Shown here piece after piece: positions 11,201-38,544 of a stretch of 39,227 nt of DNA (position 1 is the first letter of the stretch; every line of letters begins with the position of its first letter). The stretch comes from a virus. The notes below the pieces were generated by a model. The model was not told the origin of the DNA and did not search any database. It worked only from the letters and a program-made list of their open reading frames with translations. Both the position numbers and the translations under genes were made by a program. The stretch is taken from IMG/VR virus record IMGVR_UViG_3300020395_000034, positions 1 through 39,227 of that record. One strand, 5' to 3'.

Positions 11201-12791
11201 CTGCTGTTGCGACACCAACAACTCCAGGATATTCTATACCATTAATTTCTATAGGTTCACCTTTAGCAAAGCTACCTGAAGTTTGATTTAAAACTATAGT
11301 TGCTGATCCATTACCAACACCAACAGAATATCCACTTGCTCCACTATTACGACCCTTAACAAATGATCCTTTAGGTAAAGATGTAGCACTTATTCCTTGA
11401 TTTAAAGTTATTTTAGTATTTGTTTGAATATCAAATAATCTAAGTTCCCAATTAGTAGAATCTCCAGTATAAGCAGCATCTTCTAAATTAAAACTATATG
11501 CTCTGGCACTACCTATGTTTGCTGCTGCTGGTGTTCCAAATTCACTATACAATTCAACAATTTTTCCTTGTTTTGGTAATCCTGAAACTTTATTTACCTT
11601 TAAAACACTACCCATATCAAAATTAACAGCCACATCACTCTTAATTCCAACATCTCTTGGTTTATCAACATCAAGAATAGTTGTTCCAACCTTTTCTATA
11701 TCATATCCTCTAACATATGCCTTACCAGAAGACAATTTAAGACACATTAAATCTTTTGATGGAGTATTTAATTGTTCTGTTTTGTCATTTTTAAAATATA
11801 ATCCACCATTACCTAAATTGTCATTTAATGAATTGTGTAATGTAAATTGAAATGGTCTAGTTGTGTAATCACCAGACTCATCAAATGTCCTTTCTGCTAT
11901 CCAATCTCTAACTATATTATATTGACTTTTTGATTGTAAGAATTTAATTTTACCATTATCAACTCTCATTAACTCAACAAAATCAGTATCATTCTGATCT
12001 GATATTAATTTTTTAGTTAAAGTTAATTTTATTTGTAATCTATCAGCACCTGGAGCAGCATAATTGGTAAATCCTTTAGCATTATCATATAAAGAATTGT
12101 CATCTTTAGCATTAACTAAAATTTCATCAACCTTTAGACCAACTCTATATGATGGTTTATTTGTATAATAATCTAAAATTAGAGTTTGATCTGTAACATT
12201 TACAAAATATCCTCTAATAAAATAGATACCTTTTGTTATAAATGATGCTGATCCAATAGATGTTGCATTTGTTTCTATTAAAGAAGCAAAAGGAGTACCA
12301 GCACCAATTGTTGTATTACCATATACTACATTTTCTGTACAACTTAATAACTCACCATCAGTAAAAGCAGATATTTGTGAATTATTATCAGAACTTAAAT
12401 ATGTAACATATATCGTTATATCATCAACATTAACATTATCAGGTAAAACAACGTACTTAATAGTAGCAGTTATACCAGAAGTTTGACCTGTTATTTTTTT
12501 ACCTATAAAATTATTCAAATATACTGATATATCAGTACCATAATTTACAGAATTAAGTTTTACTGCCTGAAAATTGCCATCATAAGATATTGCTCCAGGA
12601 ATTACAACAGATCCATCTTTAAAAATATTATCACCAAATGACTGTAATTGATTTTGTAATATGGATTGAGATGTTGTTAACTCTCTAGCTTGTACTGGAA
12701 ATCCTGGTTTATATAAGACTTTATAAAAATTCTTTTCAGAATCAAAGTCATCGTAATATGGACTTACATTTAAATTAGTTTTTTGTGCCAT
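5283..12791 (-). CDS. Giant virion structural protein, DUF4815-type N-terminus (2,502 aa)
   Basis: The N-terminus (NVSPYYDDFDSEKNFYKVLY, then PGFPVQARELTTSQSILQNQ) is the signature of the DUF4815 family of phage structural proteins. The family's second landmark, DTIDFRPRVPEYLP followed by YNYYLPRIDKVYLNKFGDF, lies near residues 1000-1090. Near 1640 is a beta domain opening DPLAQTFVVGGN and containing FLTSVGVFFASIDD, which I associate with tail or baseplate proteins of this phage group. The last 140 residues (from DPHCAQYVSNTVTLS, about 2365) look like a separate C-terminal domain. Ser/Thr/Asn-rich beta repeats fill the rest. The gene occupies the slot of T4 genes 9-12, so it probably fuses baseplate-peripheral and fibre functions (inference). 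The start lies 6 bp after the gp8 stop. Confidence 0.85.
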   Translation of the reverse strand: MAQKTNLNVSPYYDDFDSEKNFYKVLYKPGFPVQARELTTSQSILQNQLQSFGDNIFKDGSVVIPGAISYDGNFQAVKLNSVNYGTDISVYLNNFIGKKITGQTSGITATIKYVVLPDNVNVDDITIYVTYLSSDNNSQISAFTDGELLSCTENVVYGNTTIGAGTPFASLIETNATSIGSASFITKGIYFIRGYFVNVTDQTLILDYYTNKPSYRVGLKVDEILVNAKDDNSLYDNAKGFTNYAAPGADRLQIKLTLTKKLISDQNDTDFVELMRVDNGKIKFLQSKSQYNIVRDWIAERTFDESGDYTTRPFQFTLHNSLNDNLGNGGLYFKNDKTEQLNTPSKDLMCLKLSSGKAYVRGYDIEKVGTTILDVDKPRDVGIKSDVAVNFDMGSVLKVNKVSGLPKQGKIVELYSEFGTPAAANIGSARAYSFNLEDAAYTGDSTNWELRLFDIQTNTKITLNQGISATSLPKGSFVKGRNSGASGYSVGVGNGSATIVLNQTSGSFAKGEPIEINGIEYPGVVGVATAANTQNIKSVKQPASTGYPEFTANSHLEKFRLPNNVVTVNITAASAGVSTVTSGSSPFDGLTTGSIVRYVKPGETTETFNKVKEISSGGLSIVIEAISGITNGTIPTSSLQVSMFAGAPIIRGRGYLHAPLANKNVSEVNLDGSNLKVTKQITGRTISSNSTTITINDVKSQYSDVDTASFESFDQERYSVHFSNGGIGTVTSDRFAYQNNGDQITISGLTNGSNAVVNTSIIKKGITSKIKDYNRSKIVNVSYSKYETSGSAATGNGAASISDGLIFDRRYGLRVQDEEISLNLPDVSKFLAVYESIDTNTPTLDILQFTSTVDVQTNAIIGENISGDDSKVVARIVSKPAANKLAVVYLTGDKFTKSESVSFSESNIQTNIENITIGTYKNITNSFTLNKGQKDQYYDYSRLVRNKGTSEPSGKLLIVVDYYTIKNNDDGDVFTALSYDNDRFDTDIPNVGVNGLRATDTIDFRPRVPEYLPASMTGSPFEFSTREFTDSIKQYIIPNESSIIGYNYYLPRIDKVYLNKFGDFIYEKGVSSENPKSPVRNDELMELGTIKLPPYLYNPQNAFLTLVDNRRYTMRDIGGIDDRVSNLEEVTSLSLLETSAQTLQIQDSEGRNRFKSGFFVDSFRDYSKINSFLSAVTVNPDLQEITPIRSRGTLALQPMPKASLISSQYDANSDFELFDSNVQKTGHAITLKYNEVEFLSQPYATEIINVNPYELPAIGGDVELDPSADTWTRTIQLEDNIIRQSGTNQVSNLNLNTNLSGSLDLGNVLSTTSNVNRETGSGAAERVNTSEETNVETFSGALSISGSASASTTINTTDTFFQNRLISSATDDFMRSRNIQYKATGFPEWTKVFCWLDGQQIFDIIPKLLEITPSSNGSNYGSVGSFTIGEEVHALDADGNIIMKFRICRPDHKDGAFNAPTSIYGSDPYSRGVDSISTDYSQTSKFLNVDTRSLAEEAQGLYFGYVAKNSRLVGQESGASAYVKDLSLITDSFGDINGALFLRDPYLQPSPTVKVNSGTKSFRLTTSAENRQAPPGQDPSIVTADTSYTAVGTVEEWQNDVTITTNTNTLNVNSTTDVDLGVTGSTTNTVRTRTVEYFDPLAQTFVVGGNILAPSAINGNDDLNGVFLTSVGVFFASIDDVAGTPVRCEIRTVTGDARPSMRIVGRTRTLYPTKVDENGNLVNNIEFDRDSASKETKFTFPEPLYLPPGSSYAAVLVAERSVNYTVWTGRHGDVAVNPQSIPGASGGSSLRYSRQYGSGSLFKSQNGALWTEDQSQDMTFKLYKAEFTSLNGTAFFTNPDLDESNGYTPRLNTNPIETLPKTGYIGITTIQSDQTALINTLAPGRKLTGNKAGTTSVITGVGCSALTSSVTDGGNNYQTQINAETYNITGQGKDLKLSITANADGVLTGATPSADELGTGYRVGDVVGIKTSSLTSKTGSGAKITINSIGGIDTIYLTNIQGQATSYPVGMGISYYNNAGNVISNNTYPILSNSTFNNGGINNGNYIKVSHFNHGMYSGTNKVKLSNIKSDIAPTTTTAVVNRDETATVSVASTSQFLTYEGIAVSAANTGYVKVNNEIIGYQSVGTGILNIANTSGNKRGVDNSIPIEHPVNSVVEKYQIGGVSLRRLETIDKLDISNLSLDLDSYYVSFDRTKNGKNRSIDADNQPQLSFKDNSIVGGSNVRGTQNIIYGALVPRFDVGTPTGISGSATNVSSTIRSVSATSVSGTENSFNDLGYEQVQLNSYNDLDSVRMVASKVNENEYLSNLPRKKSFTTALTLTSNDKNISPIIYLDGVSTEFISHRLNNPVGIERYDVDNRVNSVIDDPHCAQYVSNTVTLSKPATSLKVLMTAYRHSSSDIRVLYNLIKSDSSEINQSFALFPGYKNLIDNDDDGFGDVVKDETKNDGRSDSFVGPSIKNQFKEYQYTADNLPEFIGYTIKIVMSGTNQAEPPRVKELRTIAVR

Positions 12792-32889: not shown

Positions 32890-33237
32890 CTAACTGTAAG
32901 ACAATTCGGGTGTGTCATGTAATACAATACCATCAAAGAATGACGTGGTTTTTTGTCTAAAACTAACAAACCAATTCCAATTCCTTTGATATACACTTGC
33001 CCCGTATTTTACCTCAGATAAGATTGCATTTAGTCTTGATTTTGTCGTCACTGTTTCATATCCACAGGAAGACAATAACACTGACTTAGTGTTATAATCA
33101 TAGGTTGCAATTTGATGCCCGTGTAGAAAGATTTGACTACACTTTGTCAAGTCGTTATAAGAAACTTGGGTGTTTGCTTGACACCAGTCTTCTCTATTAC
33201 GGATTGCTTGACACATTTTTGCTTCAATTTTACGCAT
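32890..33237 (-). CDS. Conserved phage protein with MRKIEAxM...AIRNRxDW opening (115 aa)
   Basis: The open frame extends upstream to 33375, but that part overlaps the promoter and leader, so I place the start at the ATG at 33237 (MRKIEAKMCQAIRNREDWCQ). The pattern that follows, ANTQVSY...IFLHGHQIATYD, then TTKSRLNAIL and WNWFV, matches small proteins I recall from phages of many bacteria, including cyanophages: a compact alpha/beta domain of unknown role in which LHGHxIA and TTKSRLNA are the signature. The leader is about 113 nt. First gene of a four-gene operon driven by the box promoter at 33,357-33,398. Confidence 0.75.
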   Translation of the reverse strand: MRKIEAKMCQAIRNREDWCQANTQVSYNDLTKCSQIFLHGHQIATYDYNTKSVLLSSCGYETVTTKSRLNAILSEVKYGASVYQRNWNWFVSFRQKTTSFFDGIVLHDTPELSYS

Positions 33238-33356
33238 GGTAATTAAAGAGAAATAGTGGTGAAAAGTGGGTGAGGTAGCAGATGTCTGACTTATGCTAAC
33301 TCCTTTGCGAAGTCTAATTAAAGTCTCAGGGATGCCAACCTCTCTCCCACCTTTAT

Positions 33357-33398
33357 AATATACATGATTTTGCAACTGTATGGGAGTTTACTGTGACA
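33357..33398 (-). promoter_or_regulatory. Box promoter D (TGTCACA-29-TATATT)
   Basis: Minus strand: TGTCACA (33,392-33,398), five bases, CTCCCAT, then -10 TATATT (33,357-33,362), exactly 29 bp from box to -10. Drives the 115/42/46/44-residue operon. A CGATCG palindrome ends 17 bp upstream. Confidence 0.75.
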
Positions 33399-33415
33399 CT
33401 TTCTCAACTGGTTTC

Positions 33416-33429
33416 CGATCGCACGATCG
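33416..33429. repeat. CGATCG-CA-CGATCG palindrome (HIP1-like)
   Basis: Two CGATCG sites separated by 2 bp between the terminator of the 133-residue gene and box promoter D. The minus-strand copies GCGATCGT and GCGATCGG each differ from HIP1 (GCGATCGC) at one base. The same 14-mer recurs at 34,394 and 34,679. Confidence 0.85.
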
Positions 33430-33430
33430 C

Positions 33431-33455
33431 AAAAAAAATCCCCCGTGAGGGGGAT
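33431..33455 (-). terminator. Strong rho-independent terminator
   Basis: On the minus strand ATCCCCC, loop tcac, GGGGGAT, then eight T. Begins 7 bp after the stop of the 133-residue gene. Confidence 0.93.
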
Positions 33456-33461
33456 AGTTGA

Positions 33462-33863
33462 CTAAGTGGTTTCAAGTGACTTAACTAACTGTCTGTAATA
33501 TGGTAGAATAGTATTAACAAATCCTCTGATATCTTTCACCAATTCCTGTATCTCATAATGATGAATATTCCAACGGTTAGAAATGTCACGTTGGTAGTCT
33601 CTCATTTGGATTAGAGGGGCATTTGGTTTCACTAATTCAGTTGATTTGTTTACAACTTTACCAGATTCGAAAGTAGTTACTGTTACTTTCTTTGTCTCAA
33701 TCTTTGGAGTTGTTGTAACTTTAGGAGAAGGAGTTGCCTTCTTTGTTGTTACTTTAGCAACTGATTTTGCTGCTGTTGTTGTAGTCTTACGTGTGCGTCT
33801 TTTGCGTGGGGTTGTTGCCTTAGCAGGTGTCGCAGTTGTTGACTTAACAGGCATAAAATTCAT
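33462..33863 (-). CDS. Basic Lys/Thr/Pro-rich protein with a conserved C-terminal domain (133 aa)
   Basis: Residues 1-75 are low complexity: TTPRKRRTRKTTTTAAKS has an AT-hook-like basic core, followed by KVTTKKATPSPK repeats, resembling histone-H1-type tails. Residues 85-130 (IQMRDYQRDISNRWNIHHYE, then IQELVKDIRGFVNTILPYYR) are a helical domain. I would guess a DNA- or RNA-binding protein, possibly nucleoid-organising; not demonstrated. ATG at 33863 chosen; a second in-frame ATG (33854, MPVKSTT) is possible. The leader is only about 13 nt and has no Shine-Dalgarno sequence. Single-gene unit: box promoter E in front, strong terminator behind. Confidence 0.78.
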   Translation of the reverse strand: MNFMPVKSTTATPAKATTPRKRRTRKTTTTAAKSVAKVTTKKATPSPKVTTTPKIETKKVTVTTFESGKVVNKSTELVKPNAPLIQMRDYQRDISNRWNIHHYEIQELVKDIRGFVNTILPYYRQLVKSLETT

Positions 33864-33882
33864 TCATTCGTTTGACTCTCTT

Positions 33883-33924
33883 AATATACACGGTTTTAGG
33901 TATCAGTGGGAGAAATGTGTGCCA
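33883..33924 (-). promoter_or_regulatory. Box promoter E (TGGCACA-29-TATATT)
   Basis: Minus strand: TGGCACA (33,918-33,924), five bases, CTCCCAC, -10 TATATT (33,883-33,888), spacing 29. Drives the 133-residue basic protein. Divergent to box promoter A; both share the single CGATCG at 33,943. Confidence 0.75.
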
Positions 33925-33942
33925 CTTATCCAACTGGTTTCA

Positions 33943-33965
33943 CGATCGCAAATTCCGGCTGGAAT
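33943..33965. repeat. CGATCG plus ATTCC-ggct-GGAAT hairpin between divergent promoters
   Basis: CGATCG (33,943-33,948) followed by the inverted repeat ATTCC / GGAAT with loop ggct (33,952-33,965). The same CGATCGCAA-ATTCCGGCTGGAAT block precedes box promoter C (34,687-34,709). Confidence 0.8.
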
Positions 33966-33978
33966 CCAATCAACAAAC

Positions 33979-34020
33979 TGTCACAGTGTTTTCCCATACG
34001 TGGTTAAAATGGTTTATATT
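33979..34020 (+). promoter_or_regulatory. Box promoter A (TGTCACA-29-TATATT)
   Basis: TGTCACA (33,979-33,985), five bases, TTCCCAT ACG, -10 TATATT (34,015-34,020), spacing 29. Predicted start near 34,027, just 5 nt before the structured RNA element at 34,032. Drives the 88-residue gene. Confidence 0.75.
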
Positions 34021-34031
34021 ATGAATAACAA

Positions 34032-34068
34032 CGGGGAAAGGCGAATGTGCCCCGTGAGTCGCCCTCAC
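34032..34068 (+). ncRNA. Predicted pseudoknot / kissing-loop leader RNA
   Basis: Order of elements: CGGGG, aaa, GGCGA, atgtg, CCCCG, tga-g, TCGCC, CTCAC. CGGGG pairs with CCCCG; GGCGA in that loop pairs with TCGCC; GTGAG (sharing the final G) can also pair with CTCAC, placing TCGCC in its loop. All three helices are perfect 5-mers. It lies at the extreme 5' end of the transcript from box promoter A. Not matched to any riboswitch class I know. Confidence 0.5.
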
Positions 34069-34110
34069 TGAAAGACATCCACCGGTTATTCATTTTTCAT
34101 TCTTTTCTCT

Positions 34111-34377
34111 ATGCTTTACGAAATCATTTCAGACAATGTGGATTTCATGTTTACCGATGTTGAAGAGATAGGCACAAGTGACGTTTCCATATGTGTCAAC
34201 CGTATCATCAAAGAATATTCTCCTTTCACTGAAGACTATGCCTCAACCCCTACACGGCAAGTCATCCGTAGAATGGTTAACAATTGCCTGGCAACGTTGA
34301 ATGATTTACATCACACCCAAGTATGGGAAGACATGGCAAGGCAAACCTGCGAATTTACTGCCTCTCCCCCTTACTAA
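34111..34377 (+). CDS. Hypothetical protein (88 aa)
   Basis: MLYEIISDNVDFMFTDVEEI, then GTSDVSICVNRIIKEYSPFT and TRQVIRRMVNNCLATL; acidic N-terminal half, helical C-terminal half. Not recognised. The ATG is preceded by a pyrimidine-rich stretch with no Shine-Dalgarno sequence, and the roughly 80-nt leader holds the pseudoknot-like element, so its translation may be regulated. The TAA stop lies in the loop side of the downstream terminator hairpin. Base composition is visibly richer in G+C than the structural genes. Confidence 0.7.
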   Translation: MLYEIISDNVDFMFTDVEEIGTSDVSICVNRIIKEYSPFTEDYASTPTRQVIRRMVNNCLATLNDLHHTQVWEDMARQTCEFTASPPY

Positions 34378-34387
34378 GGGGGTTTTT
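34366..34387 (+). terminator. Rho-independent terminator containing the stop codon
   Basis: CCCCCTT, loop act, AAGGGGG, then TTTTT. The stop TAA of the 88-residue gene is at 34,375-34,377, within the loop and the first bases of the 3' arm. Confidence 0.9.
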
Positions 34388-34393
34388 AATGTC

Positions 34394-34408
34394 CGATCGT
34401 GCGATCGC
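34394..34408. repeat. CGATCG-TG-CGATCG palindrome with an exact HIP1 octamer
   Basis: CGATCGTGCGATCG followed by C, so GCGATCGC (HIP1) is present at 34,401-34,408. It ends 17 bp upstream of the TGGCACA of box promoter B. Confidence 0.88.
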
Positions 34409-34424
34409 AAACCAATTGACAAAG

Positions 34425-34467
34425 TGGCACATAAAACTCCCAAAGTGCCCCCTTTTGTGTGTATAAT
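34425..34467 (+). promoter_or_regulatory. Box promoter B (TGGCACA-30-TATAAT)
   Basis: TGGCACA (34,425-34,431), five bases, CTCCCAAA, -10 TATAAT (34,462-34,467), spacing 30. The predicted start coincides with the ATG at 34,474, so the mRNA would be leaderless or nearly so. Confidence 0.72.
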
Positions 34468-34473
34468 AAGTTT

Positions 34474-34668
34474 ATGTTTAATCCTAATACTACTTTCAAT
34501 CCTGCGTTTCCTTACGCAGTCGTATGTGCGGCAGCACCGCATGAAAATACCGTTAAAAAAACTTTAGATGAGTGTTGGGGTTTATGTCTTGACTTATCCG
34601 AAGAATACGGGCACTCTGAAATATGGTATGGAAAATGCCTGATGGGTGAATATAGAAACGGGCAGTGA
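34474..34668 (+). CDS. Hypothetical protein (64 aa)
   Basis: An upstream GTG at 34,459 is in frame but overlaps the -10 box, so the ATG at 34,474 is the start. MFNPNTTFNPAFPYAVVCAA, then PHENTVKKTLDECWGLCLDL, SEEYGHSEIWYGKCLMGEYR. Four Cys. The second half (a helix ECWGLCLDLSEEYG, then a strand and GEY) resembles small proteins of cyanobacterial phages that I cannot name. The transcript is probably leaderless. The stop TGA sits in the loop of the downstream hairpin. Single-gene unit between box promoters B and C. Confidence 0.68.
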   Translation: MFNPNTTFNPAFPYAVVCAAAPHENTVKKTLDECWGLCLDLSEEYGHSEIWYGKCLMGEYRNGQ

Positions 34669-34675
34669 TGCCCGT
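34658..34675 (+). terminator. Perfect hairpin with the stop codon in its loop
   Basis: ACGGGCA, loop GTGA, TGCCCGT (7 bp, GC-rich). The stop TGA (34,666-34,668) is three of the four loop bases. There is no T-run, so termination may be weak or Rho-aided, or the hairpin may protect the mRNA end. Confidence 0.6.
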
Positions 34676-34678
34676 GCC

Positions 34679-34709
34679 CGATCGTGCGATCGCAAATTCC
34701 GGCTGGAAT
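34679..34709. repeat. CGATCG-TG-CGATCG palindrome (HIP1) plus ATTCC-ggct-GGAAT hairpin
   Basis: CGATCGTGCGATCGC with HIP1 at 34,686-34,693, then ATTCC / GGAAT (34,696-34,709). Same composite block as at 33,943. Confidence 0.88.
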
Positions 34710-34722
34710 CCAATTAAATAAG

Positions 34723-34764
34723 TGGCACACACTTTCCCTATTCGTGGGTAAAATCGTTTATATT
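34723..34764 (+). promoter_or_regulatory. Box promoter C (TGGCACA-29-TATATT)
   Basis: TGGCACA (34,723-34,729), five bases, TCCCTATTCG, -10 TATATT (34,759-34,764), spacing 29. Leader of about 20 nt with AAGGA 8 bp before the ATG of the 83-residue gene. Confidence 0.75.
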
Positions 34765-34790
34765 TAAAGAGTCAACAAAGGATTTGCATT

Positions 34791-35042
34791 ATGAATGGTT
34801 GGAAAGATTACGAAACCTGGAATGTATCCCTTTGGATTCAAAACACGGAATGCCTTTACAGATTGGCATTAGAGTGTGCAGGGTTTCAAGAATGGAAAAA
34901 CGTCATGCACAACGACGTTGGAAGTTTCTTCACGGATGACGGGGTTGCTTGGGATGATGCTGACTACTCTGAAGTGCAGAGCATGTTTAATGAAATGAAA
35001 GCAACGACTGATTTGCATCACTGGCGACTGGCACTACAGTAA
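34791..35042 (+). CDS. Conserved YETWNVSLWI-family small protein (83 aa)
   Basis: Starts MNGWKDYETWNVSLWIQNTE, the signature of a small family (K-YETWNV-LW-N-E-LY) that I recall from phages, bacteria and archaea and whose function is unknown. A second half DDADYSEVQSMFNEM leads to an amphipathic end. A clear AAGGA ribosome binding site supports the ATG. Monocistronic: box promoter C upstream and a strong terminator 2 bp downstream. Composition is closer to the 33-35 kb block than to the virion genes. Confidence 0.82.
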   Translation: MNGWKDYETWNVSLWIQNTECLYRLALECAGFQEWKNVMHNDVGSFFTDDGVAWDDADYSEVQSMFNEMKATTDLHHWRLALQ

Positions 35043-35044
35043 AA

Positions 35045-35070
35045 AAATACCCCCGAAAGGGGGTATTTTT
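35045..35070 (+). terminator. Strong terminator, probably bidirectional
   Basis: AAATACCCCC, loop gaaa, GGGGGTATTT, then TT; there is an A-run on the 5' side, so it could also stop minus-strand transcripts. It is followed by a CGATCG (35,072-35,077) and a CCGGCTG remnant of the promoter block without an associated box promoter. Confidence 0.9.
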
Positions 35071-35121
35071 GCGATCGGAGATTTCCGGCTGCCGATAGTA
35101 CAAAAATACTCTTCACATAAG

Positions 35122-35154
35122 AAAAAAGATATGTATCATTTACTGACACATATC
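35122..35154 (-). terminator. Terminator with the stop codon in its loop
   Basis: On the minus strand GATATGTGTC, loop agtaaat, GATACATATC (10 bp with one G-U), then six T. The TAA of the 61-residue gene is in the loop (35,140-35,142). Confidence 0.85.
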
Positions 35155-35325
35155 CTCATTTAAAAGTGTTACAAACTCAGCATATTGTTCATCACTATAT
35201 GCTCTTTTGTCATTAAGATTGAAATCCTGCCATTCAGTGCCTTCAACCCTAAATGATAGATTGCCGTTGACTATTTGATAATCAAACTCACAATCATCGA
35301 TTGGAGAGATAAACTTTTTAATCAT
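35140..35325 (-). CDS. Small hypothetical protein (61 aa)
   Basis: MIKKFISPIDDCEFDYQIVN, then GNLSFRVEGTEWQDFNLNDK and RAYSDEQYAEFVTLLNEDMC. Predicted beta strands then a helix. Not recognised. Starts 2 nt after the TAA of the 48-residue gene and is the last gene of the three-gene unit begun by box promoter G; its stop codon is inside the terminator loop. Confidence 0.68.
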   Translation of the reverse strand: MIKKFISPIDDCEFDYQIVNGNLSFRVEGTEWQDFNLNDKRAYSDEQYAEFVTLLNEDMCQ

Positions 35326-35327
35326 AA

Positions 35328-35474
35328 TTAATCAAAAACTTTATCAGTTAGAGAATCGTAATCCTCTGAATTAATGTTATCAGGTAAACCCACATCGTTG
35401 AAATAACGTATAATCTCAACTAACGCAGTTTCTTCTGATTCAGTAATACTTAGTGTGCGTAATGTTTGAGACAT
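35328..35474 (-). CDS. Small protein, paralogue of the 55-residue gene at 38.6 kb (48 aa)
   Basis: ATG at 35474, TAA at 35328. MSQTLRTLSITESEETALVE then IIRYFNDVGLPDNINSEDYD. Alignment by eye with the 55-residue protein at 38,546-38,713 (MNETKRTLTISEAEESVLVE / MVMFFNDNGWINEESQNEYD) gives about half identical positions over the first 40, including RTL(S/T)I(T/S)E-EE, LVE, FFND/YFND and D-YD-L-(D/E)KV. So this is a small conserved family present twice in the window. Function unknown. Second gene of the box promoter G unit. Confidence 0.72.
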   Translation of the reverse strand: MSQTLRTLSITESEETALVEIIRYFNDVGLPDNINSEDYDSLTDKVFD

Positions 35475-35482
35475 GATGATAA

Positions 35483-35791
35483 TTAGTTAGATGAATCTTG
35501 TATGTTAATGTAACGATTAGGCACGAAATCTTTCAACGTGTCACTGTTAATAAACTGAGGTGGCATATACTCACTAATTAACTCCCAATCAGGTGAAAGT
35601 GTCATACGTTGAATATCATATTCAAACGTATCTTTACTCACTAATTGTTTGCTATAAGTCTTAAATCCACCTGCCATAAACTCAACGACTTTGAAGATTA
35701 CGTTTTCATTTATAACATTACCCCAAGATTTAACGGGATAAAAGTTAACAACTGTGTTTCCACTAATTGTATCCTTACGAAGAAATTCCAT
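35483..35791 (-). CDS. Hypothetical protein (102 aa)
   Basis: The start at 35791 gives MEFLRKDTISGNTVVNFYPV, a normal soluble opening; an ATG at 35830 in the same frame (METILSLFVITF, adding 13 hydrophobic residues) lies exactly at the predicted transcription start and would be leaderless. I cannot decide with certainty; the longer frame reaching 35,872 would run through the promoter. The body VIFKVVEFMAGGFKTYSKQLVS and ...TFEYDIQRMTLSPDWELISEYM is not recognised. First gene of the 102/48/61 unit, driven by box promoter G. Confidence 0.68.
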   Translation of the reverse strand: MEFLRKDTISGNTVVNFYPVKSWGNVINENVIFKVVEFMAGGFKTYSKQLVSKDTFEYDIQRMTLSPDWELISEYMPPQFINSDTLKDFVPNRYINIQDSSN

Positions 35792-35836
35792 AATGAAAGT
35801 AATAACGAAAAGTGAAAGAATTGTTTCCATGTTGTT

Positions 35837-35878
35837 AATATAACATGAAATTTCAACGAATGGGAAAATCATGTGACA
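35837..35878 (-). promoter_or_regulatory. Box promoter G (TGTCACA-29-TATATT)
   Basis: Minus strand: TGTCACA (35,872-35,878), five bases, TTCCCATTCG, -10 TATATT (35,837-35,842), spacing 29. The box overlaps the final codons and stop of the 82-residue gene (GTC ACA TGA). No CGATCG upstream. Confidence 0.75.
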
Positions 35879-36117
35879 GTTTCTAGAGTGTCAATCTTCT
35901 GTTGCTTAAGTGTTATTAACCGTGAGATAATATCAAAGAGAATATTATAATTAACTCCTTGCCAATCATCCCACTCTGATACATAACCAGCACAGTCAAA
36001 ATCAACTCCCCCTTCTATTAACGAAGGAGCATATTTCAAATCATTTGTTACATCTTCCAACCAAAATCCCATACCAAAGTATTCACTTGAAACTACAATC
36101 GGGTTGTTAGATGTCAT
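35869..36117 (-). CDS. Conserved small cyanophage-type protein (82 aa)
   Basis: MTSNNPIVVSSEYFGMGFWL, then EDVTNDLKYAPSLIEGGVDF and GYVSEWDDWQGVNYNILFDI. The middle (D-TNDLKYAP then GYVSEW-DW) recalls small cyanophage proteins; function unknown. C-terminal predicted coiled helix (SRLITLKQQKIDTLE). Its last codons are the TGTCACA box of promoter G, so the two are constrained together. Preceded by box promoter F and a leader hairpin. Confidence 0.72.
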   Translation of the reverse strand: MTSNNPIVVSSEYFGMGFWLEDVTNDLKYAPSLIEGGVDFDCAGYVSEWDDWQGVNYNILFDIISRLITLKQQKIDTLETVT

Positions 36118-36143
36118 AAACTGTTTTTGGTAATTGTTTACAA

Positions 36144-36165
36144 ATACTCGACTGATTTCGAGTAT
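36144..36165 (-). promoter_or_regulatory. Leader hairpin at the predicted 5' end of the 82-aa mRNA
   Basis: ATACTCGA, six-base loop, TCGAGTAT (8 bp perfect inverted repeat), starting near the predicted transcription start from box promoter F; either an mRNA-protecting hairpin or an operator. Confidence 0.6.
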
Positions 36166-36171
36166 ATGTAT

Positions 36172-36213
36172 ATACTACCATGGAATATTAACGAATAGGA
36201 ATATTATGTGCCA
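36172..36213 (-). promoter_or_regulatory. Box promoter F (TGGCACA-29-TAGTAT)
   Basis: Minus strand: TGGCACA (36,207-36,213), five bases, TTCCTATTCG, -10-like TAGTAT (36,172-36,177) at spacing 29; TATATA is 3 bp further on. The weakest -10 of the seven copies, but the upstream boxes are well kept. Confidence 0.65.
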
Positions 36214-36233
36214 CTTATATTACCGTCATAAGT

Positions 36234-36578: not shown

Positions 36579-36607
36579 ATTATAACAAAATCTCGACTAG
36601 ATGTCAA
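36579..36607 (-). promoter_or_regulatory. Consensus sigma70 promoter TTGACA-17-TATAAT
   Basis: On the minus strand both hexamers are perfect and the spacer is 17 bp. Four 12-mer repeats lie 34-95 bp upstream of the -35, and a related AAATCTCG-ACTAG sequence is in the spacer. Expected to be a very strong early promoter for the 53-residue gene. Confidence 0.88.
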
Positions 36608-36616
36608 GCGTTTGTT

Positions 36617-36637
36617 ATGTATAATGTATAATGTATT
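36617..36637. repeat. Tandem heptamer ATGTATA x3
   Basis: ATGTATA, ATGTATA, ATGTATT back to back, between the promoter and the 12-mer repeats. Confidence 0.85.
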
Positions 36638-36640
36638 AAA

Positions 36641-36702
36641 GAAATCTCGTAGCGAAATCTCGTAGTGTATATGGCACGAAATCTCGTAGTAAAATCTCGT
36701 AG
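36641..36702. repeat. Four copies of RAAATCTCGTAG (iteron-like)
   Basis: Copies start at 36,641, 36,654, 36,678 and 36,691 (steps 13, 24, 13), i.e. nearly two copies of a 37-bp unit each holding two 12-mers. Three copies are GAAATCTCGTAG and one is AAAATCTCGTAG. No gene covers them. A cluster of protein-binding sites upstream of the perfect promoter is the simplest reading. Confidence 0.9.
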
Positions 36703-36732
36703 CAAACTATCAGTCAGTAGTATGTATGAACT

Positions 36733-38230: not shown

Positions 38231-38544
38231 TAATACTTACCTCCAGTGTTATTAATATCCATGACTGTTTCGTTAGTTACGTTATCAACCAGTTCATTAT
38301 ACAATCCTTCATCATAATTGTCAATCTCTTCTTTTAATTCAACACTACTACAATCTTCATAATAATCATTTAATTGATCTGTTACTAATGCGACCAGAGT
38401 TTTCATATCCATACCATCCACAACTATTTCAACAAACTGTTGGTAAACTTCTCTTTCTTGATCTCTGGTTAGATTTGCTTTTTTGATGATTGTTTTTGCG
38501 TCCATTTCAGAATTGGTTGCGTTAGGGTTTGCTTTAATGTTCAT
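38230..38544 (-). CDS. Conserved small cyanophage protein (104 aa)
   Basis: The open frame reaches 38658 but would overlap the 55-residue gene; the ATG at 38544 (MNIKANPNATNSEMDAKTII) lies 1 nt after that gene's stop and is the better start. VYQQFVEIVVDGMDMKTLVA then QLNDYYEDCSSVELKEEIDN and YDEGLYNELVDNV: the second half (D-Y...EL-E-ID-YDE-L-(D/N)EL) is a pattern I know from small cyanophage proteins. Function unknown. Confidence 0.72.
   Translation of the reverse strand: MNIKANPNATNSEMDAKTIIKKANLTRDQEREVYQQFVEIVVDGMDMKTLVALVTDQLNDYYEDCSSVELKEEIDNYDEGLYNELVDNVTNETVMDINNTGGKY

Follow-up and report, generated by a model that had tools for sequence, protein, structure and literature searches.

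A 24-bp operator dyad upstream of small cyanophage genes has the layout of host yfr2 promoters and may be a site for the host regulator PlmA

Results

Seven dyad promoters in a cyanophage fragment

The window studied here is the whole of a 39-kb virus fragment (39,227 nt; IMG/VR record IMGVR_UViG_3300020395_000034) that has a GC content of 31%; its genes include structural ones of T4-like cyanophages, as well as Gp96 of Kyanoviridae. An initial annotation had proposed a coordinated set of promoters for tiny genes on both strands, each with a TGKCACA box at a fixed distance from a TATATT-like -10 hexamer, and our analysis supports that proposal. All seven boxes lie where they had been placed. 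The box, however, was taken as a complete element. A 24-bp dyad with the consensus TGTGMCASTY-N4-RASTGKCACA is present instead, and the box makes up its promoter-proximal half; the conserved far half (YCASTT) had been overlooked. The dyad ends 29-30 bp upstream of the -10 hexamer.

When up to two mismatches were allowed, the pattern TGKCACA-N5-YTCCCA matched the 39 kb seven times, at exactly these seven sites, five of which match it perfectly. Shuffled windows gave a mean of 2.3 matches, and 7 were reached in 2 of 100 shuffles. The window was also scanned with a weight matrix trained only on eight other cultured cyanophages. The seven sites scored 20.6-28.6 and ranked as the top seven in the window, followed by the same dyads read in reverse (19.3 and 13.1) and then by a score of 7.3. 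Second-order Markov shuffles (n = 50) had a mean best score of 8.9 and a maximum of 21.5. The seven sites are real and well beyond chance.

Some details of the sites needed adjustment. AA(C/G) precedes the box at 7 of 7 sites rather than at six. TATATT stands exactly 29 bp past the box at five sites, where six had been claimed; the one site with a spacing of 30 is as described, with TATAAT as its hexamer (site 4, box at 34425), while at site 7 (36213) the spacing is 29 but the hexamer is a weak TAGTAT. Five copies match YTCCCA perfectly, and the block deviates at site 5 (34723; TCCCTA in register) and site 7 (TTCCTA). All seven copies do precede a gene, but the 5' leaders vary from practically none at sites 4 and 6 (35878) to more than 100 nt at site 1 (33398). 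At site 4 the ATG at 34474 is 6 nt beyond the -10, at site 6 an in-frame ATG near 35830 falls at the 7th nt past it, and both transcripts are predicted to be leaderless; the leaders predicted at the other five sites run from about 20 to >100 nt. The features are collected in Table 1.

Table 1. Dyads, -10 hexamers and hairpins of the promoter cluster, with the open reading frame (ORF) that follows each promoter
Feature	Position	Strand	Sequence	Matrix score	Downstream gene or remark
Site 1, 24-bp dyad (operator)	33392..33415	-	GAAACCAGTTGAGAAAGTGTCACA	28.3	
Site 1, -10	33357..33362	-	TATATT		29 nt past dyad; Kyano_Gp96 gene, ORF 32890-33375
Site 2, 24-bp dyad	33918..33941	-	GAAACCAGTTGGATAAGTGGCACA	28.5	
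Site 2, -10	33883..33888	-	TATATT		before ORF 33462-33863 (phrog_27005)
Site 3, 24-bp dyad	33962..33985	+	GAATCCAATCAACAAACTGTCACA	20.6	
Site 3, -10	34015..34020	+	TATATT		before ORF 34111-34377
Site 4, 24-bp dyad	34408..34431	+	CAAACCAATTGACAAAGTGGCACA	28.6	
Site 4, -10	34462..34467	+	TATAAT		spacing 30; before ORF 34474-34668 (phrog_17176)
Site 5, 24-bp dyad	34706..34729	+	GAATCCAATTAAATAAGTGGCACA	21.3	
Site 5, -10	34759..34764	+	TATATT		before ORF 34791-35042 (DUF7249, phrog_871)
Site 6, 24-bp dyad	35872..35895	-	ATTGACACTCTAGAAACTGTCACA	26.9	
Site 6, -10	35837..35842	-	TATATT		before ORF 35483-35872
Site 7, 24-bp dyad	36207..36230	-	TATGACGGTAATATAAGTGGCACA	24.2	
Site 7, weak -10	36172..36177	-	TAGTAT		before ORF 35869-36117 (phrog_13427)
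Intrinsic-terminator-like hairpin	33438..33455	-			upstream of site 1 dyad
Intrinsic-terminator-like hairpin	34366..34382	+			upstream of site 4 dyad

Anatomy of the module

An exact scan of the collection with the pattern of the initial annotation returned 33 more viral contigs, and these together with the window gave an alignment of 24 non-redundant sites. In this alignment CCASTT is also conserved, at 13 to 8 bases upstream of the box, and completes the 24-bp dyad with AA(S)TGKCACA; a TCG precedes the -10, and a GT lies about seven bases past it. In the column counts of these 24 sites there is neither an NtcA-type GTA-N8-TAC block near -41 nor a MotA-type TGCTT block at -30. When the dyad by itself served as the query, the contigs revealed many additional promoters, and in these the spacer holds other sequence than YTCCCA; an example is CCCCC-loop-GGGGG-TTTTTT, an intrinsic terminator of the preceding gene.

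Reference genomes provided a larger set of 111 sites having both dyad and -10, of which the eight cultured cyanophages contribute 110. The -10 spacing is 29 in 54 of the 111 and 30 in 45. A terminator-like hairpin is present in 21 of the 110 dyad-to--10 spacers (1.6 in shuffled spacers), and 28 have a -35 that agrees with TTGACA in at least five of the six bases (1.2 in shuffles). What stays constant in the module is the dyad, whose spacing to the -10 is kept while the spacer varies. YTCCCA, which had been taken for a general -35, is thus only one spacer variant; in other phages a TTGACA- or TTGGCA-like -35 or a terminator hairpin is found. Because the arms of the dyad do not covary in the 111 sites (44 paired against 46.8 expected, and 41 against 50.3), the dyad is read as a site for protein on DNA and not as an RNA hairpin.

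Distribution among phages

Sixteen phage records were searched with dyad plus -10 at spacings of 29 and 30, and eleven genomes were scanned piecewise. With dyads counted at ≥14 of 18 matched positions, there are 32 in ACG-2014f, 21 in S-CRM01, 16 each in P-HM2 and S-SKS1, 15 each in P-SSM2 and S-PM2, 10 in Syn9 and 7 in S-ShM2, and reversed-pattern controls gave 0-3. At the same threshold the outgroup T4 has 1 dyad and Pelagibacter phage HTVC008M has 4, none of the latter reaching 16 positions; S-TIM5 has 0. The dyad plus -10 pattern was not matched in Ma-LMM01 or P-SSP7. We regard the module as absent from T4, HTVC008M, Ma-LMM01 and P-SSP7. Across IMG/VR, at least 120 stretches combine the strict dyad with a -10 at spacing 29, versus 13 at spacing 26. 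Blast searches with two single sites against phage records gave only short dyad matches, in P-HM2 and S-ShM2.

The modules mostly precede small ORFs in the cyanophage genomes. In the 27-56 kb segment of ACG-2014f, 23 of 28 promoters lie in gaps of at least 60 nt, although such gaps make up 11% of the segment, and 23 of the 32 gaps of this size are occupied by promoters. The next start codon in ACG-2014f is mostly 22-27 nt past the -10.

S-TIM5 (JQ245707) has, at 163.8-171 kb, five dyad-like sites at spacing 30 in which TGKCACA is mostly replaced by TGGCCCA or CGGCCCA; these are possibly a variant operator.

Host yfr2 promoters share the layout

A strict-dyad scan of bacterial genomes gave 59 loci, mostly from acidobacteria and non-marine cyanobacteria, with one Cyanobium; no locus was titled Prochlorococcus or marine Synechococcus. 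At five cyanobacterial loci an exact dyad is directly upstream of the Rfam Cyano-1 (Yfr2) RNA, usually with a TATNNT-like hexamer 29-30 past the dyad. Cyano-1 RNA is present in 57 of 61 Cyanobiaceae genomes from which yfr2 loci were drawn, and the upstream regions contain TGTGACAGTT-N4-WAG, or close variants of it, at a near-constant distance from the RNA start. The phage-only matrix was then applied to 26 picocyanobacterial yfr2 upstream regions and 1156 control windows, and 19 of the 26 (73%) scored above the 99th percentile of the controls (p = 3e-16).

The host promoter and the phage module have in common the TGTGACAGTT arm, a distance of 29-30 bp to the -10, and a start near +7. The initial annotation knew of no promoter class with this layout, a claim that fails because the host yfr2 promoter shows it. 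The two also differ. Host genomes carry one to five yfr2 genes, and the right half of their dyad is weak. In phages the dyad is more symmetric and one genome can have as many as about 30 modules; these serve protein genes, and a terminator is often included in them.

According to PMC6778093, the GntR regulator PMM1637, present in all cyanobacteria, binds yfr2 promoters with a CGRE1 motif, this motif is found in MED4 in yfr2 promoters only, and induction of Yfr2 in high light and late nitrogen starvation is mediated by PMM1637. PMC7344720 identifies PMM1637 as PlmA, which partners PII-PipX and undergoes reduction by thioredoxin.

Candidate regulators

No GntR protein above threshold was found in 13 phage genomes, T4 giving one sub-threshold match, and a profile built on acidobacterial proteins found none; a phage-encoded GntR factor was accordingly rejected. 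A cyanophage MarR (PMC9692554) was likewise set aside, being a podovirus protein with its site downstream of the start, and P-SSP7 is without dyads. Since yfr2 shares the dyad and its spacing, and the phages are without GntR genes, the bound protein is most likely host PlmA/PMM1637. The box had been read as the site of an unnamed activator; that is still the best reading, with PlmA now the probable activator. In the sites of YtrA-like GntR proteins, GT/AC stands well away from the middle of the dyad (PMC4494728).

Two further roles for the dyad in the host were considered and rejected. Autoregulation of plmA was dismissed, there being no dyad near plmA starts, which agrees with the statement in PMC6778093 that PMM1637 is not an autoregulator. 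A wider chromosomal regulon in Cyanobiaceae was dropped on account of a near-control frequency and of several matches that fall within one conserved coding sequence.

In acidobacteria, six dyads have a GntR gene nearby, in five cases no more than about 110 bp away, and the encoded proteins can be aligned with PlmA of cyanobacteria over as many as ~300 aa, with E values down to ~1e-19. To our knowledge, PlmA has been described as unique to cyanobacteria. Dyads stand beside PlmA-like GntR genes at acidobacterial loci L227, L233, L234, L246, L249 and L269, and six dyads (L225, L236, L241, L250, L264 and L270) belong to one acidobacterium, Pyrinomonadaceae SSF56. As judged from these sequences, the acidobacterial dyads point to a PlmA-like regulon outside cyanobacteria.

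Neighbouring features of the window

The true start of the Kyano_Gp96 ORF is probably the ATG near 33238. Behind the -10 of site 1, on the minus strand at 33240-33356, lies GGTGGGAGAGAGGTTGRCATCCCTGAGACTTTAATTAGACT, which is conserved at three other loci and is possibly a structured leader. An ATG 6-7 nt past the -10 recurs in several modules, namely at 34462-34476 and 35828-35842 of the window and at four other loci (e.g., TATAATAAGKATATG), so that the predicted leaderless layout is kept between contigs.

Six HIP1-like sites (GCGATCGC, at most one mismatch) lie within 33415-35078, all in the dyad gene cluster; 0.5 are expected in the window and none of 100 shuffles reached 6, which is unusual for a cyanophage of this GC content. 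They are mostly shortly upstream of dyads, beside a repeated TTCCGGCTGGAATCC palindrome. Two perfect TTGACA-17-TATAAT promoters without a dyad, at 36579-36607 and 38296-38324, both on the minus strand, have more small genes downstream. A gene-poor segment at 36628-36715 carries short GAAATCTCGTAG repeats.

Discussion

We propose, with a probability of roughly 0.7, that the phage modules are captured host PlmA-dependent promoters that are under the control of the host transcription factor. A dimer of the GntR-family protein PlmA (PMM1637 in Prochlorococcus MED4) would bind the 24-bp operator, whose centre falls some 53 bp before the predicted start. The bound dimer would help host sigma-70-type RNA polymerase to start at the -10 placed 29-30 bp downstream, at promoters where the -35 is poor or missing or has given way to the preceding gene's terminator. 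A phage has up to about 30 near-symmetric copies, each in a short gap before a small gene. As a host genome has one to a few copies, which are less symmetric, the phage copies would take most of the PlmA and fire their genes together, probably early in infection. We infer, then, that PlmA binds the phage copies and activates them early, in competition with yfr2.

Several points weigh against this proposal. Seven of the 26 yfr2 upstream regions fall under the 99% control threshold, and the right half of the host yfr2 dyad is clearly weaker than in the phage copies. Elsewhere in Cyanobiaceae, dyads with at most two mismatches occur in 19 of 151 genomes, near the control level, and several of them sit in coding DNA. 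The equation of CGRE1 with the dyad depends on position and on the yfr2 promoters that were fetched, rather than on the CGRE1 sequence, and the proximity of dyads to GntR genes in acidobacteria is indirect evidence for PlmA.

The alternative that fares best, though we consider it improbable, is that PlmA binds the phage sites but represses or delays the genes, or that the copies are decoys that titrate PlmA from yfr2. GntR regulators are often repressors, and a genome with as many as about 30 copies might be able to titrate a factor. The dyad, however, lies upstream of the -35 region at a strict distance from the -10, as expected of an activator site, and a decoy would have no need of a -10. 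Further, PMM1637 is described in PMC6778093 as mediating Yfr2 induction.

Next, and also unlikely, is the possibility that an unknown phage-encoded DNA-binding protein occupies the operator, the likeness to yfr2 being due to shared ancestry or convergence. It would fit the greater symmetry of the phage dyads, the near absence of the strict dyad from picocyanobacterial chromosomes, and the GGCCCA-like variant in S-TIM5, which has the same host strain as S-ShM2. Yet host yfr2 promoters with the same spacing were found by a matrix trained on phages, 13 phage genomes showed no GntR protein above threshold, and a host factor for the yfr2 promoters has been published (PMC6778093).

It is very unlikely that the dyad is instead an RNA hairpin of the upstream transcript, acting as terminator or processing site, or a recombination site of shuffled cassettes. 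The arms are able to pair around a 4-nt loop, terminators lie beside or inside many modules, and the modules are located in gene-shuffling regions, but the lack of covariation, the strict -10 spacing and the same layout before yfr2 speak against it; a part in shuffling would be compatible with a working promoter. Least credible is the suggestion of the initial annotation that an alternative sigma factor uses YTCCCA as its -35: in many copies it does begin five bases past the box, but the block is unconserved and gives way to TTGACA-like -35 elements or terminators while the dyad and the -10 spacing are kept.

The modules recall other phage systems in part. The promoter-early stem-loop (PeSL) repeats of T4-like phages reportedly join a terminator to an early promoter, and are said to be short repeats that separate the small genes in hyperplastic regions. 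The cyanophage modules resemble them where a stem-loop or terminator is joined to the promoter, as in the 21 hairpin-bearing spacers and upstream of sites 1 and 4 of the window; unlike in PeSLs, the cyanophage hairpin, if present, sits between the operator dyad and the -10. In S-PM2, for example, a dyad at 11347-11370 is directly followed, in the spacer before the -10, by the stem-loop at 11369-11391 (PMC4503421), which is in the deletable ORFanage region (PMC4503421). The sigma-70-like early promoters of S-PM2 and Syn9 (PMC2984593) share with the dyad class a -10 for host RNA polymerase and sometimes a TTGACA-like -35, but the accessible part of that paper describes no operator dyad for them, whereas the dyad class keeps the dyad and is often without a -35. 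T4 MotA/AsiA middle promoters also let an activator site substitute for a poor -35. Unlike the MotA site, the cyanophage site ends upstream of the -35 position and is a 24-bp dyad of host type, and cyanophages are without motA and asiA according to PMC2984593.

A broader proposal, which we hold tentatively and at somewhat less than even odds, is that cyanomyophages from several genera use the host's PlmA for an early regulon that is virus-wide, with arrays of improved copies of a host small-RNA operator fused to terminators. Early phage transcription would then be tied to the light, redox and nitrogen status of the host through PII-PipX and thioredoxin, and PlmA would be drawn away from Yfr2. 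The control of early and middle genes in T4-like cyanophages, which are without motA, asiA, alt and mod, is called unclear in PMC2984593; the dyad class, found in eight cultured phages, supplies a concrete candidate regulator for these genes. The dyad would also allow early promoters to be predicted in phage genomes and contigs. The PlmA regulon has been called undefined (PMC6243067) and, if our proposal is true, it is larger in viruses than in PlmA's own genome. The seven promoters of the window, with their near-perfect copies of the element that stands before yfr2, suggest that these viruses use a light- and nitrogen-linked switch of the host for dozens of tiny genes. If so, the expression of dozens of unknown host-takeover genes would depend on a regulator of the host that is connected with PII-PipX and thioredoxin.

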